Shown: positions 7,361-46,440 of the stretch, piece by piece
How positions within the stretch are numbered: the first letter of the stretch is position 1
Layout: every line of letters starts with the position of its first letter
DNA from: Vampirovibrionales bacterium
GTDB lineage: Bacteria > Cyanobacteriota > Vampirovibrionia > Vampirovibrionales > Vampirovibrionaceae
NCBI GenBank assembly: GCA_029262635.1
Contig: JAJCZA010000005.1
Location: forward strand, 124,001 to 188,000
Direction of reading: 5' to 3'
Length of the DNA: 64,000 nucleotides
Made by a program: the position numbers and the translations under genes
The notes under the pieces: model-generated
What the model was told of the DNA's origin: nothing
Databases searched by the model: none
What the model saw: the letters and a program-made list of their open reading frames with translations, nothing else

Positions 7361-8107
7361 ATGTCGATTCATTCGTCTTATTATCTGCCGACCCCCCCGA
7401 TAAAATTCAGTGCCATCTCATTCCCCTGGACACCCCAAAAAAAGCCTGTCGACCCAGAACAAGCCACCATCGACACCCTTCACACTTTTCGTTCTGAATT
7501 AGAATCAACAGCTGGTTATTACTCCACAGTCAATGCTGATCAGTATAAAGCACTTCGAGAAATGGCGGCACTAAAGGCCGCGGGGGGAGTTGAATCACTT
7601 GAGAAGCTAGACCAATTAAGAAAAGACCACACGGCTCTATTAAAGCCCGGATTTAATAGCATTCGGAACGATTTAGCAGAAGCCGGTCTGGTTCAATTTA
7701 AACAGCCTGACCCTCCTGAAGAAGGTTGGATTGATGCCTCTTTACCACAAGAGTATCCACCTGTTTTATTCAAATTCCAGCATCCTAAACTCGCCGATCA
7801 AGTCCTGAGGATCGTTCAACGTAATAAGCTAAGAGAATTGCTGTTTAAGCTGGGGCAATCCGAGCAGAATCAGACGGATTTCTCCCCTCTGTCAAGCCCA
7901 CTCCGTCAGGAATGGGGCGAAGATAAGATAATCGGATACATGAAGGAGCTGGAAGACTTAGGGTTTATTATCGTGGAAGGAATCCGAAACCCTCAACCTC
8001 GATTAACGGACACTGGCCGGACGTTTGTCCGGGGATTTTTCAAAGATAAATACAGCGATCAACTGACCCAAGCGCACCCAAAATTCCAAAAGGCTCCTCT
8101 TAAGTAG
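7361..8107 (+). CDS. Orphan protein with winged-helix-like C-terminus and IKFSA motif
   Basis: Product of 248 aa. AAAGGAGC lies 8 nt before the ATG. No signal peptide. Residues 14-18 (IKFSA) match the N-terminal motif shared by other orphan proteins in this window. Residues about 45-90 are helical. The C-terminal 70 residues (a helix with EDKIIGYMKELEDLGFI, a beta wing, then RLTDTGRTFV) resemble the winged-helix DNA-binding layout of MarR/PadR-type proteins, as in the gene at 19442. It converges with serA, with only 2 bp between stop codons. Function unknown; DNA binding is an inference. Confidence 0.7.
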   Translation: MSIHSSYYLPTPPIKFSAISFPWTPQKKPVDPEQATIDTLHTFRSELESTAGYYSTVNADQYKALREMAALKAAGGVESLEKLDQLRKDHTALLKPGFNSIRNDLAEAGLVQFKQPDPPEEGWIDASLPQEYPPVLFKFQHPKLADQVLRIVQRNKLRELLFKLGQSEQNQTDFSPLSSPLRQEWGEDKIIGYMKELEDLGFIIVEGIRNPQPRLTDTGRTFVRGFFKDKYSDQLTQAHPKFQKAPLK

Positions 8108-10944: not shown

Positions 10945-11157
10945 CGAGAAGTCTCCAAAGGGATAGGGCGTTTACTTTAACCCGCCTATTTTAGCCTAAT
11001 CCGTGAAAACCACCAACCTTTCGATCGAACACAAGAATAATAGTTTTTATTTTGATATCAATCATGCTATAAAAAGAAGGTGAGCAAGGGGCATGTTGGA
11101 GAAGGGTTTGGGTTTTAAAGGGATAACTTTGGTGTCAAACAAGTAAAGGGATATGTT

Positions 11158-12492
11158 GTGATATTGCAAGGGATGAATCCGAGTCGCACGATTCATAACC
11201 ATGCCGGAAAGCTCGGGGCTGGCAGTGACCCGATCGCATTTTTACATCAAAAAAACACGCGGACTTTGCCTTCTTTATTGCCCTTGCCCTCTGATTTAAT
11301 CCGATTTAGCGGACGAGAAACCGATAAACAGATTGCCCAGCGATTTAAAAAAGAATTTGAGATCGATGTGGATCAGATCAGGGAAGTCCGATCCTTATTT
11401 CCTGAAGCACAGCCCATCGCAGATAAGCTGAAACCAAAAGACATTCGAAAAATAGCGATTGAGGCTTTGCGAGCCTATACCCAAGCCTGGAAAAATTCGA
11501 AACTGACCAATTTTTCCAATCATTATTGGGGATACAGCATGCAGCTTCAAACAGGCCATTGGGAGCTGGCCACCAATATTGAGCACGCCCGAGATTGCGC
11601 TTATTGTGGCGAGCGGGCTGCTTTTGACAGGCTTTGGAACAACAAAATAGAGCAAGTCCCGGTTGAAAAATTTAAAGACAAACGTTCTTTAGAGCACTTA
11701 AGGAAGACTTTACAGGTTAAAACCATTGTCATGGCGGACGCTGAAACAGAAATTCCCTACTATTCGTCCGTTAAAGCAGGAAAAATGAGCCCCTGTTCTG
11801 AATGTCTGGATACGATTAATGCGGGCCGTTATTATTCTCCGGAAACCCAGATGATGATGCTCTGTCGGGATCCATCATCTGGAGAATTCTATTTAGGGTT
11901 CCGACAGATGAAAGATTTTCTCCCGGTGATGGGCAAACAACAAGTCTCGTTGAGCGATAAACCCATTGAAAGCCTCCCCCTTCAATTTTCAGAACGTGCT
12001 AAAACCTTTTTAAACAAGAAAGGCAAGGGTAAAAGTAATCAAAGAGACACCTCTTGGTGGGAGTCTCAAATAAAAAATCACTTAAAAGCCGCTCAAGCCG
12101 AGTACAGAAAGCCCGGAGAGCCTCCTAAAGGCACACTCAAAAATATAAAACACCTCGACTCAAAACAAGTTTATGTAGCGACCCTCTTTAATCGAGGCGA
12201 TTATTCTCAGGTCGCCACCCGGGTGGAGAACTCCAAACGGTGGAACACTCCCGCGGAAATCTGCGCCGAAATCATGGCCGTTCATCAGTTTTCCAACCTT
12301 AAGAATCAAGGCGAACTAGAGGTTAATCTGATGGCCTACTATGGGGATGACCCCGTGAGAATCCCCAATTTAAAAAGCTTAGGTCCCATCGCCGCCCTTC
12401 GAGGCAACCCCGAAACCCTTCTCGCTATGATTGAGAATGGCACCATCCATGTCCGAACCATCCGAGACTACATGCCTTACCTCTATTTATAA
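11158..12492 (+). CDS. Tandem cytidine-deaminase-fold protein
   Basis: Product of 444 aa with a GTG start (AAAGGGA about 6 nt upstream). The N-terminal extension of about 95 residues includes LIRFSG (47-52). Domain 1 (about 95-258) follows the CDA order: helix, NIEHA (N140/E142), zinc and catalytic CGERAAF (C150, E152), VKTIVMADAE, PCSEC (C213, C216), then FRQMKDFLP like the CDA ending 'eLLP'. A roughly 30-residue insertion separates the motifs. Domain 2 (about 300-444) repeats the layout, TRVEN then ICAEIMAV (C369, E371) and a final IRDYMPYLYL, but lacks the PCxxC cysteines. E. coli Cdd has a similar active-plus-degenerate tandem. Substrate (nucleoside, nucleotide or nucleic acid) is unknown. 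A 76-aa gene follows 72 bp later. Confidence 0.8.
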   Translation: MILQGMNPSRTIHNHAGKLGAGSDPIAFLHQKNTRTLPSLLPLPSDLIRFSGRETDKQIAQRFKKEFEIDVDQIREVRSLFPEAQPIADKLKPKDIRKIAIEALRAYTQAWKNSKLTNFSNHYWGYSMQLQTGHWELATNIEHARDCAYCGERAAFDRLWNNKIEQVPVEKFKDKRSLEHLRKTLQVKTIVMADAETEIPYYSSVKAGKMSPCSECLDTINAGRYYSPETQMMMLCRDPSSGEFYLGFRQMKDFLPVMGKQQVSLSDKPIESLPLQFSERAKTFLNKKGKGKSNQRDTSWWESQIKNHLKAAQAEYRKPGEPPKGTLKNIKHLDSKQVYVATLFNRGDYSQVATRVENSKRWNTPAEICAEIMAVHQFSNLKNQGELEVNLMAYYGDDPVRIPNLKSLGPIAALRGNPETLLAMIENGTIHVRTIRDYMPYLYL

Positions 12493-19441: not shown

Positions 19442-19849
19442 ATGACATTTAGCTCACCGATGGGCCTCTCTTTTTCAGGAGCGGCCATGCGTCCGGCTCG
19501 ACAAACGGCCCAACAGCCCGTTGCCTATTTTGGCAGTAAGCTGAACAACTCTCAAGATCAAATTCTAGAATGTCTGAACAATCTAGAATGTCTGAACAAT
19601 AGAGCAACCGCAGCCGATGTGTTAACCGACATTTATAAAATAGGACTACAACATTCTGATAAGATGCTCCCTCTTTTATTAGTAATTGTACTAACTATGA
19701 ATGAAGAGCGCGAAACCTTGATAGACGCCTTAAATCGGTTAGAGTCTGGCGGCTTTGTGTTGAGAGTTTCTGATGAGAAGAACAACCGTTATGCCTTATC
19801 AAGCAAAGGGCTGAACATGCTCAGAAAAGTATATCCAAAGATAAACTAA
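19442..19849 (+). CDS. Orphan winged-helix-like protein with LSFSG motif
   Basis: Product of 135 aa. The N-terminus MTFSSPMGLSFSG carries the recurrent motif (9-13), with a second AYFGS at 28-32. Residues 42-52 hold a direct duplication (ECLNNLECLNN) from an 18-bp tandem repeat in the DNA. The C-terminal half (DALNRLESGGFVLRV, then RYALSSKGLNML) looks like a MarR/PadR-type winged helix. No signal peptide. Just upstream of mlaE on the same strand, but probably not functionally linked. Unknown function. Confidence 0.65.
   Translation: MTFSSPMGLSFSGAAMRPARQTAQQPVAYFGSKLNNSQDQILECLNNLECLNNRATAADVLTDIYKIGLQHSDKMLPLLLVIVLTMNEERETLIDALNRLESGGFVLRVSDEKNNRYALSSKGLNMLRKVYPKIN
19564..19599 (+). repeat. 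18-bp perfect tandem duplication inside 19442 gene
   Basis: TCTAGAATGTCTGAACAA occurs twice head to tail (19564-19581, 19582-19599). The frame is kept and six residues (LECLNN) are duplicated. Identity at the DNA level suggests a recent slippage event. Confidence 0.95.
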
Positions 19850-39066: not shown

Positions 39067-39468
39067 ATGCGCCTTAAAATCCTGACTCCAGAGCGTACAA
39101 TTCTTGACGAAGAGAATGTGGATGAGGTGTTTGCCCGATCCACGGAAGGGGAGTTTGGCGTTCTACCTCAACACTTGCCCTTAGTTGCCCCATTGGCTAT
39201 TTCCTTACTGCGCTATACTAAAAACGGTAAGAAGGACGTCGCTGTCGTGATGGGCGGCATGTTCAGTACGGACGGTCAGTCGGTGACTGTTCTGACGGAT
39301 GCGGGCGAATTGTCTTCTGAAATTGATAAAACACGAGCAAACCATGCCATCGAACGAGCCACAGCCCGCCTACGAGAGAAAACCTCGGACACCGACCTCG
39401 ATTCTGAACGAGCCCAACGCTCCTTAGATAGAGCCCAAATCCGTCTTAAGGCGATGGTTAGTTCTTAA
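39067..39468 (+). CDS. atpC: ATP synthase F1 subunit epsilon
   Basis: Product of 133 aa. The N-terminal beta sandwich (MRLKILTPERTILDEENVDEV, STEGEFGVLPQHLPLV) is followed by a two-helix hairpin (ERATARLREK) that inhibits ATP hydrolysis. It starts 6 bp after atpD, with AAGGAG overlapping the atpD stop. Its stop overlaps that of the minus-strand gene at 39465 by 4 bp. Confidence 0.96.
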   Translation: MRLKILTPERTILDEENVDEVFARSTEGEFGVLPQHLPLVAPLAISLLRYTKNGKKDVAVVMGGMFSTDGQSVTVLTDAGELSSEIDKTRANHAIERATARLREKTSDTDLDSERAQRSLDRAQIRLKAMVSS

Positions 39469-39809
39469 TCTTTTAACCTGTTAGGGTTTAAATCAAGCTC
39501 TTTAATTGAACCTTGATGGCCTTCAATAAAGCTTGGCTCAAGATTATTTACAACACCGACAATAACTTTATTATAAGAATCTTGTTGCGTAAAAACATCA
39601 AGAGGACTTTCCTTAAGTGCTCTTTTTAATGCTTCGTAGTCCTTAGCTTCGTCACCCGTAACGAGGTAAGGAACCGAATTCGCTTCAATTAAAAAAGCAC
39701 CTTCTCGAAAGCTGACTGCTTTTTCCATAAACCGTTGGGTATTCTCTGGCTTAAGTCCCTTTATTTTATAAATATGCCCAAATTTAACCGAGGATAATGG
39801 ATTCATCAT
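39465..39809 (-). CDS. Orphan protein with VKFGH motif
   Basis: Product of 114 aa, ATG at 39809 with GGAG 10 nt upstream; a second ATG follows at once. The N-terminus MMNPLSSVKFGH carries the recurrent orphan-protein motif (8-12). The body is alpha/beta, with no Cys, signal peptide or TM segment. It has its own promoter at 39846-39874 and converges on atpC with a 4-bp overlap of stop codons. No known family. Confidence 0.68.
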   Translation of the reverse strand: MMNPLSSVKFGHIYKIKGLKPENTQRFMEKAVSFREGAFLIEANSVPYLVTGDEAKDYEALKRALKESPLDVFTQQDSYNKVIVGVVNNLEPSFIEGHQGSIKELDLNPNRLKD

Positions 39810-45417: not shown

Positions 45418-46440
45418 ATGGTTCACTTCTATCCGACTCAATTGAATACGCCAAAGTCGCCAGCTTTGTCTCATGCTCCGATGCCTCAGTTTGGCTGGAA
45501 TGAGAATGACGATTTACCGGACGACTTCGGGGTGATTGATTTAAAAGAAGTGCCCGTAAAGAGCCGTCTTTCCCCTCTCCCATTCGACCGTGATTTTTTC
45601 TGGCGGCCCAACCCCTCCCATTTAGCTCTTAAGGGGTTTCCTTACGCTTCAAACGAACTGGTCGACCAAGTGGAAAATCAGCTCAAGCGAGAGGGGCCTA
45701 ATTTTCTGGAAAAGCCCGGATTTGCTTATATTGTAACGCCTTATCCATGGTCGTCCGAAGACAATGAAAATCATGTCAAAGCTCGTTATCTGGCTTTGGA
45801 TTTAATGGGACAGCTTCAAGCCCGATCAATTGTTCCCGAAACAGAACAAAGCCGAATACAAGCATCCTTTTGGAATGATTACTTGACAGGAATGCCGGGA
45901 GGGACAACCACATACAAAAAATCCCATATGGATGTTGACACCCTTCTTTTGGGGCTGGTTTACGGGCCAGAGTCGTTAGTAAAGGGAGCCTATCCACAAG
46001 TTAGCGATATACTCGATTATTTTTATACGGAGAAAGAACCGCCGAACGCTCATTTGGAAAAATTACGAGAGAGAGGGTCTGTTGTACCCACAAATTATGA
46101 CTCAGAGTCGCTTTCACCCATGCTTCAGCAACTTGAAAAAGGGTACACCCGAACCCTTAAAAAGGGGAGTGAGTTGGGGCGAATTACGATTATGGTCTTA
46201 AATAACCTTCCTGGACTCCTTCATCGGGGTGTTTTTCATGGCGCAACCCCAGGCACCTTTTTAAATCCTGAAGAAGACGTTCTATCTACAGCTCCTCGAC
46301 AACTCTATCAGATAGGAGTGCGGTTCCCGGAGTTTAACCCTCCCAAACCCGTTAAAAAATCGATTAATTTATTGATGAAGGATGGGTTAAAAGCGCTAAA
46401 TCAAATTATCGAACCCGAGCCACCATCTAAAAAAAAGTAG
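45418..46440 (+). CDS. Orphan protein with MPQFGW motif
   Basis: Product of 340 aa. Residues 23-27 (PQFGW) fit the N-terminal motif seen in other orphans. No signal peptide, TM helix or known domain. The first 60 residues look disordered (Pro-rich), the C-terminus is Pro/Lys-rich (EPEPPSKKK). The body is alpha/beta with a GTTTYKKSHMDVDTLLLGLV stretch. Two TTGACA hexamers lie just upstream (45374, 45404), neither with a good -10. A strong terminator ends it at 46541-46576. Confidence 0.7.
   Translation: MVHFYPTQLNTPKSPALSHAPMPQFGWNENDDLPDDFGVIDLKEVPVKSRLSPLPFDRDFFWRPNPSHLALKGFPYASNELVDQVENQLKREGPNFLEKPGFAYIVTPYPWSSEDNENHVKARYLALDLMGQLQARSIVPETEQSRIQASFWNDYLTGMPGGTTTYKKSHMDVDTLLLGLVYGPESLVKGAYPQVSDILDYFYTEKEPPNAHLEKLRERGSVVPTNYDSESLSPMLQQLEKGYTRTLKKGSELGRITIMVLNNLPGLLHRGVFHGATPGTFLNPEEDVLSTAPRQLYQIGVRFPEFNPPKPVKKSINLLMKDGLKALNQIIEPEPPSKKK

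Follow-up and report, generated by a model that had tools for sequence, protein, structure and literature searches.

An unannotated family of two-domain cytidine-deaminase relatives in Melainabacteria/Vampirovibrionia

The gene, its neighbourhood and its relatives

The DNA analysed here (the window) is a stretch of 64,000 nucleotides from a Vampirovibrionales bacterium, and the open reading frame at 11158–12492 is a genuine gene. Its GTG start is supported by the sequence AAAGGG, a plausible ribosome site 7 nt upstream. The gene and the parts of its product are as follows.

11158..12492, plus strand: complete 444-aa gene starting with GTG, with an in-frame ATG at codon 6 (48 aligned family members)
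11158..11310, plus strand: low-confidence head, residues 1-51, probably disordered, ending in IRFSG (residues 48-52) (pLDDT < 50 over residues 1-51)
11311..11418, plus strand: short helical linker, residues 52-87, with a family motif resembling '(K/E)Y/FxID...(V)xS' before domain 1 (predicted helix 56-67; alignment)
11419..11949, plus strand: domain 1, residues ~88-264, a cytidine deaminase (CDA) domain with N140/E142, C150-G-E152-R153, P212-C213-x-x-C216 and L255-P256 (hhalign, Foldseek, conservation)
11608..11796, plus strand: enlarged segment between CGE and PCxxC, residues 151-213, with predicted helices 169-173 and 175-184 (model; alignment)
12031..12489, plus strand: domain 2, residues ~292-444, a degenerate CDA domain without zinc ligands, with R361-W362, Y394-x-G396, L-G-[R] and the tail P440-x-x-aromatic (hhalign; conservation)
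12262..12270, plus strand: 'CAE', residues 369-371, a chance look-alike and no zinc motif (48-row alignment; helix 365-377)

A tblastn-type search of 58 related genomes recognized relatives in 12, a count that includes the window's own. With a 14-member profile, the family was found in 45 of 382 sampled Melainabacteria/Vampirovibrionia genomes, and in a 386-genome sample of the phylum the matches were confined to this class. No relatives of the 444-aa protein were found in searches of phages, plasmids and viral contigs, or in a single-protein scan of genome contigs. The members, 350-711 aa in length, constitute a previously unannotated but real subfamily of two-domain cytidine deaminases, which gives a name to hypothetical proteins of gut Gastranaerophilales and Vampirovibrionales-like bacteria; we found no paper linking Vampirovibrionia with cytidine deaminase. 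The N-terminal extensions of two members of family f8 (L076:6164-8299 and L026:7643-9325) are much longer, giving totals of 560 and 711 aa. In one genome (G005), four family ORFs stand in tandem on the minus strand (L024:7820-12440); two of them (11007-11831 and 11862-12440) have the appearance of a single gene broken by a stop codon.

In the window's family, the gene lies between fusA and an aminotransferase/SerA pair, and in Gastranaerophilales near rpsJ-rplC or ChrA-like genes, the names of the neighbours being taken partly from reading their sequences. Within the Gastranaerophilales loci (L078-L109), it is often accompanied by a pair of short chromate-transporter-like genes and by the ribosomal rpsJ-rplC cluster. 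The fusA and rpsJ-rplC settings are possibly the same ancestral str-S10 neighbourhood. No conserved operon partner was recognized among the neighbourhoods compared. Syntenic family genes share only 25-30% identity, as against 59% between the canonical Cdd of the window's genome and that of genome G007 and 48-84% for the neighbouring syntenic proteins compared. The gene thus diverges faster than its syntenic neighbours and, because synteny has been kept, vertical inheritance with fast divergence is supported.

Judged by motif and length, the window's genome also holds a canonical Cdd of 143 aa, a TadA and a RibD, and the housekeeping Cdd was therefore rejected as an identity for the 444-aa protein. 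Nearly all carrier genomes likewise contain a match to TIGR01354, the model of canonical Cdd; the exceptions are G010, which has none, and G014, in which the match is only fragmentary.

Relationship to cytidine deaminases

Taken alone, the window protein reveals little of this relationship: a Pfam search gave PF00383 over residues 352-387 at E = 0.061 (13.7 bits against a cut-off of 25), and single-sequence searches gave no significant NCBIfam or PDB match. The relationship to CDA is thus established only through the family profile. When that profile was compared with the PDB sequences, all significant matches, and the eight best overall, were cytidine deaminases (1zab, E = 1.2e-5; also 7zob, 1r5t and 1mq0). 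Of 31 members, 17 were matched by TIGR01354 (best 1.9e-7) and five by TIGR01355 (best 1e-5); no member exceeded the curated TIGR01354 cut-off (21-36 bits against 113.65), and Pfam scans of 14 and 31 members gave no match to the C-terminal domain PF08211.

Both domains have the five-stranded CDA fold in AlphaFold2 models of the window protein (pTM 0.74, from a 31-sequence alignment) and of a Gastranaerophilales member (pTM 0.81). In Foldseek searches with either model, the top matches (those in the PDB for the window protein) were all CDA, with probability 1.00 and TMt values of up to 0.73 and 0.77, respectively; the best match of the Gastranaerophilales model was the two-domain Cdd of Vibrio cholerae (4eg2), aligned over 333 columns with E = 6e-8. 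A viral structure library yielded weak matches only, of which the top one (E = 1e-3) is unnamed. In the models, the two domains are arranged otherwise than in Cdd crystals (rmsd over both, 15-19 A), which may reflect either a real difference or an error of prediction.

Against canonical Cdd, hhalign gave probabilities of 98.7 for domain 1 and 97.6 for domain 2. Against two-domain Cdd, domain 1 paired with the N-terminal domain (93.4) and domain 2 with the C-terminal domain (94.3), the crosswise values being 8.6 and 0.2 and column-shuffled controls reaching at most 0.7. This pairing of N with N and C with C suggests, at the level of sequence profiles, descent from a two-domain Cdd. The description in the earlier note, that of a diverged tandem CDA with one active-looking and one degenerate domain, is thus supported by profile, fold and family conservation, and the unrelated fold that would have spoken against it was not found.

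A predicted zinc site in domain 1 and a second domain without one

The zinc motif [HC]-x-E ... PCxxC is present in domain 1 only. Five residues of this domain, namely N140, C150, C213, C216 and P256, are invariant in all 48 aligned members, and R153 (47/48), E152 (44/48) and P212 (43/48) are nearly so; the motifs N140-x-E142, C150-G-E152 and P212-C-x-x-C216, first recognized in the window protein, are therefore features of the whole family. In tetrameric CDA, roles have been described for Asn42, Glu44, Cys53, Glu55, Arg56, Cys88 and Cys91, and for Tyr48 and Phe126 of neighbouring subunits; the Arg following C-x-E, equivalent to R153, tunes the three-Cys zinc site (PMC9897663). The long gap between CGE and PCxxC proved genuine: C150 and C213 are separated by 63 residues here and by 44-63 in the family, as against 33-42 in canonical Cdd. 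So did the replacement of CRQ by CLD. In place of the PCxxCRQ of canonical Cdd, the family has PCxxC followed by [L/Q]-x-W (L in 39 and W in 45 of the 48 aligned members), the C-L-D-T of the window protein being an unusual version of it; one active CDA carries CLQ (PMC9897663). Further departures of the window protein from the family are at W358 (Asn) and R410 (Pro), in addition to W219 (Thr).

The positions that read the sugar are less constant. N140, the equivalent of Asn42, is present in all members, whereas position 142, the equivalent of Glu44, is Glu in 14 of the 48 (the window protein included) and Asn in 32. CDA position 24 is mostly Arg in the family, which has no equivalent of Phe/Tyr24, and an Arg also sits near the place of CDA Tyr48.

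The four members lacking E152 carry Leu instead (CDLR) and keep all three zinc Cys. They form one well-supported clade (100/100), which corresponds to a monophyletic genus group (g5), every sampled member of which is among the four. With a dN/dS of about 0.16 for one close pair, the genes of this clade appear to remain under purifying selection; deamination may thus not be the sole conserved function of the family. Genus g5 also has a different two-domain CDA-like protein of 298-331 aa with HAE...PCGSCRQ (L149:625-1620, L150:573-1553 and L152:453-1349), the N-terminal head of which contains RFAG or CFQG in L149 and L150.

In domain 2, the CAE at 369-371 had been read as a retained part of a zinc motif. 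This reading was rejected: the relatives lack the CAE, position 369 shows no conserved Cys, and the triplet lies inside predicted helix 365-377, about four residues beyond the point where the zinc Cys would stand. Domain 2 thus retains no zinc half-site. It is conserved elsewhere, namely at R361 (47/48), W362 (42/48), G396 (46/48), Y394 (42/48) and an LGR motif. Moreover, an aromatic residue three positions after the Pro of the tail occurs in none of 48 first domains, but in domain 2 this position is Phe or Tyr in 37 of 47 members and His in six more. The same asymmetry is seen in the class's own two-domain Cdd, with ELLPHPL in the N-domain and ELLPWAF in the C-domain. In tetrameric CDA, Phe126 comes from a neighbouring subunit to line the active site, and Tyr48 of another neighbouring subunit contacts the ribose (PMC9897663).

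The family thus resembles the dimeric, E. coli-type two-domain Cdd (TIGR01355; 4eg2, 1ctt, 6k63, 6l08) in its presumably catalytic N-terminal and degenerate, zinc-less C-terminal CDA domains, in the aromatic tail kept in domain 2 only and in the pairing of profiles. It differs in its greater length (350-711 aa with an N-terminal head, compared with about 294 aa), its first zinc ligand (Cys, not His), C-[L/Q]-x-W instead of CRQ, a longer CGE-PCxxC segment, changed sugar-reading residues and scores below the NCBIfam cut-offs. With tetrameric CDA (TIGR01354; 1zab, 8x6u/8x6y, 7zob, 1jtk) it shares the three-Cys zinc site and the following Arg (C-x-E-R, PCxxC), the NxE-type motif (with its Glu in 14 of 48 members) and the LP tail; however, it has a fused degenerate second domain and altered Glu44 and Phe/Tyr24 positions, and identity in structural alignments is only about 13-19%.

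Proposed function and alternatives

We consider it probable that the protein is a divergent paralogue of two-domain (E. coli-type) Cdd, that is, a zinc-dependent deaminase whose active site is composite and whose substrate has shifted. Domain 1 would bind one zinc through C150, C213 and C216, and E152 would shuttle the proton as a cytosine-like base is hydrolytically deaminated. Domain 2, its own zinc site lost, would persist for its structural and co-catalytic contribution. Its tail, Pro-x-x-aromatic (P440/Y443), is proposed to close the domain-1 site across the interface, and the conserved R361-W362 loop probably does so as well, much as one subunit serves another in tetrameric CDA; the alignment that puts R361 close to the partner site has one to two residues of slack. 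Because the ribose-reading positions are changed (E142 to Asn in most members, mostly Arg at position 24, Arg near Tyr48), the substrate would probably be a related pyrimidine nucleoside or nucleotide and not free cytidine or deoxycytidine. These changes and the ordinary Cdd in the same genome lend indirect support to the earlier suggestion of an unusual substrate. Since the window protein keeps E142, it may act on a compound closer to cytidine than members of the Gastranaerophilales branch do. The Glu-to-Leu genus presumably keeps a non-catalytic, zinc-binding version.

The gene might instead encode an ordinary, redundant (deoxy)cytidine deaminase of pyrimidine salvage that has diverged merely in sequence. 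The fold and zinc motif are indeed those of CDA, N140 is invariant, 14 members including the window protein retain Glu at position 142, and G010 and G014 lack an intact TIGR01354 match; such an enzyme is nevertheless rather unlikely, given that nearly all carriers have a canonical Cdd, that the substrate-reading Glu is Asn in 32 of 48 members with no Phe/Tyr24 equivalent, and that syntenic copies have drifted to 25-30% identity while canonical Cdd and the neighbouring enzymes have not. A zinc- or nucleoside-binding pseudoenzyme serving as a sensor, a structural subunit or an antagonist of Cdd would account for the genus in which Leu replaces the catalytic Glu while the zinc Cys are kept and the genes stay under constraint. 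The ADAT2/ADAT3 pair, in which one deaminase-fold unit is catalytic and the other pseudo-catalytic, provides a parallel, as only the Glu is lost in ADAT3 (PMC10354150), though these HxE tRNA adenosine deaminases belong to another branch of the superfamily and the likeness is one of analogy only. For the family at large, however, this reading is quite improbable, because E152 is present in 44 of 48 members, the window protein among them, and is accompanied by R153, whose CDA equivalent tunes the zinc site.

The head of the protein (residues 1-51) is regarded as a leader of uncertain role, and its IRFSG had been thought to suggest sorting or secretion. An F-x-G-like motif in a disordered head does recur in many members, and it could conceivably guide a deaminase to a host or prey cell, where it would act on nucleotides or nucleic acid. 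Fast divergence of a vertically inherited, syntenic gene, a similar head on the different CDA-type protein of g5, and the existence in the same class of the predator Vampirovibrio chlorellavorus with a proposed type IV secretion system (PMC4451040) would fit such a role. However, a large subclade of Gastranaerophilales (g71/g76) lacks the leader, and in the window's order the crude motif is not significantly enriched at the N-termini of neighbouring proteins (16 against 13.1 expected); for Gastranaerophilales the count was 45, compared with a mean of 25 after shuffling, and orthologues enter it repeatedly. No secretion gene adjoins the gene, no conserved immunity-like or other partner was found, and none of the 14 and 31 members scanned matched a Pfam deaminase-toxin family. 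Asn42 and the CDA-like NxE also argue for a free, nucleoside-like substrate. Export through the leader is thus a bare possibility, and a deaminase acting in a host or prey cell is highly improbable. Four small proteins of the window with an N-terminal F-[GS] motif (7361-8107, 19442-19849, 39465-39809 and 45418-46440; IKFSA, LSFSG, VKFGH, PQFGW) resemble the heads of the CDA-like family; they are mostly without known relatives here, and the enrichment of the motif is not significant. An anti-phage defence system was also rejected, as neither the window protein nor L110 had a PADLOC match.

The divergent, probably deaminating paralogue of two-domain Cdd remains our preferred reading. A bolder form of it, which we put forward only tentatively and consider rather unlikely, is that of a lineage-specific Melainabacteria family in which a Cdd-like two-domain enzyme has been re-aimed at a new substrate, be it a nucleotide, a modified nucleoside or a nucleic acid and perhaps that of a host or prey, and has become a zinc-binding pseudoenzyme in one genus. 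Cytidine deaminases are textbook enzymes of salvage. Because the fold and zinc site are kept, the ordinary enzyme coexists, the sugar-reading residues are changed and divergence is fast, this family is a good place to seek a new deamination reaction. The clade without the catalytic Glu offers a natural comparison of enzyme with pseudoenzyme, and names are given to hypothetical proteins of bacteria whose biology is poorly known.
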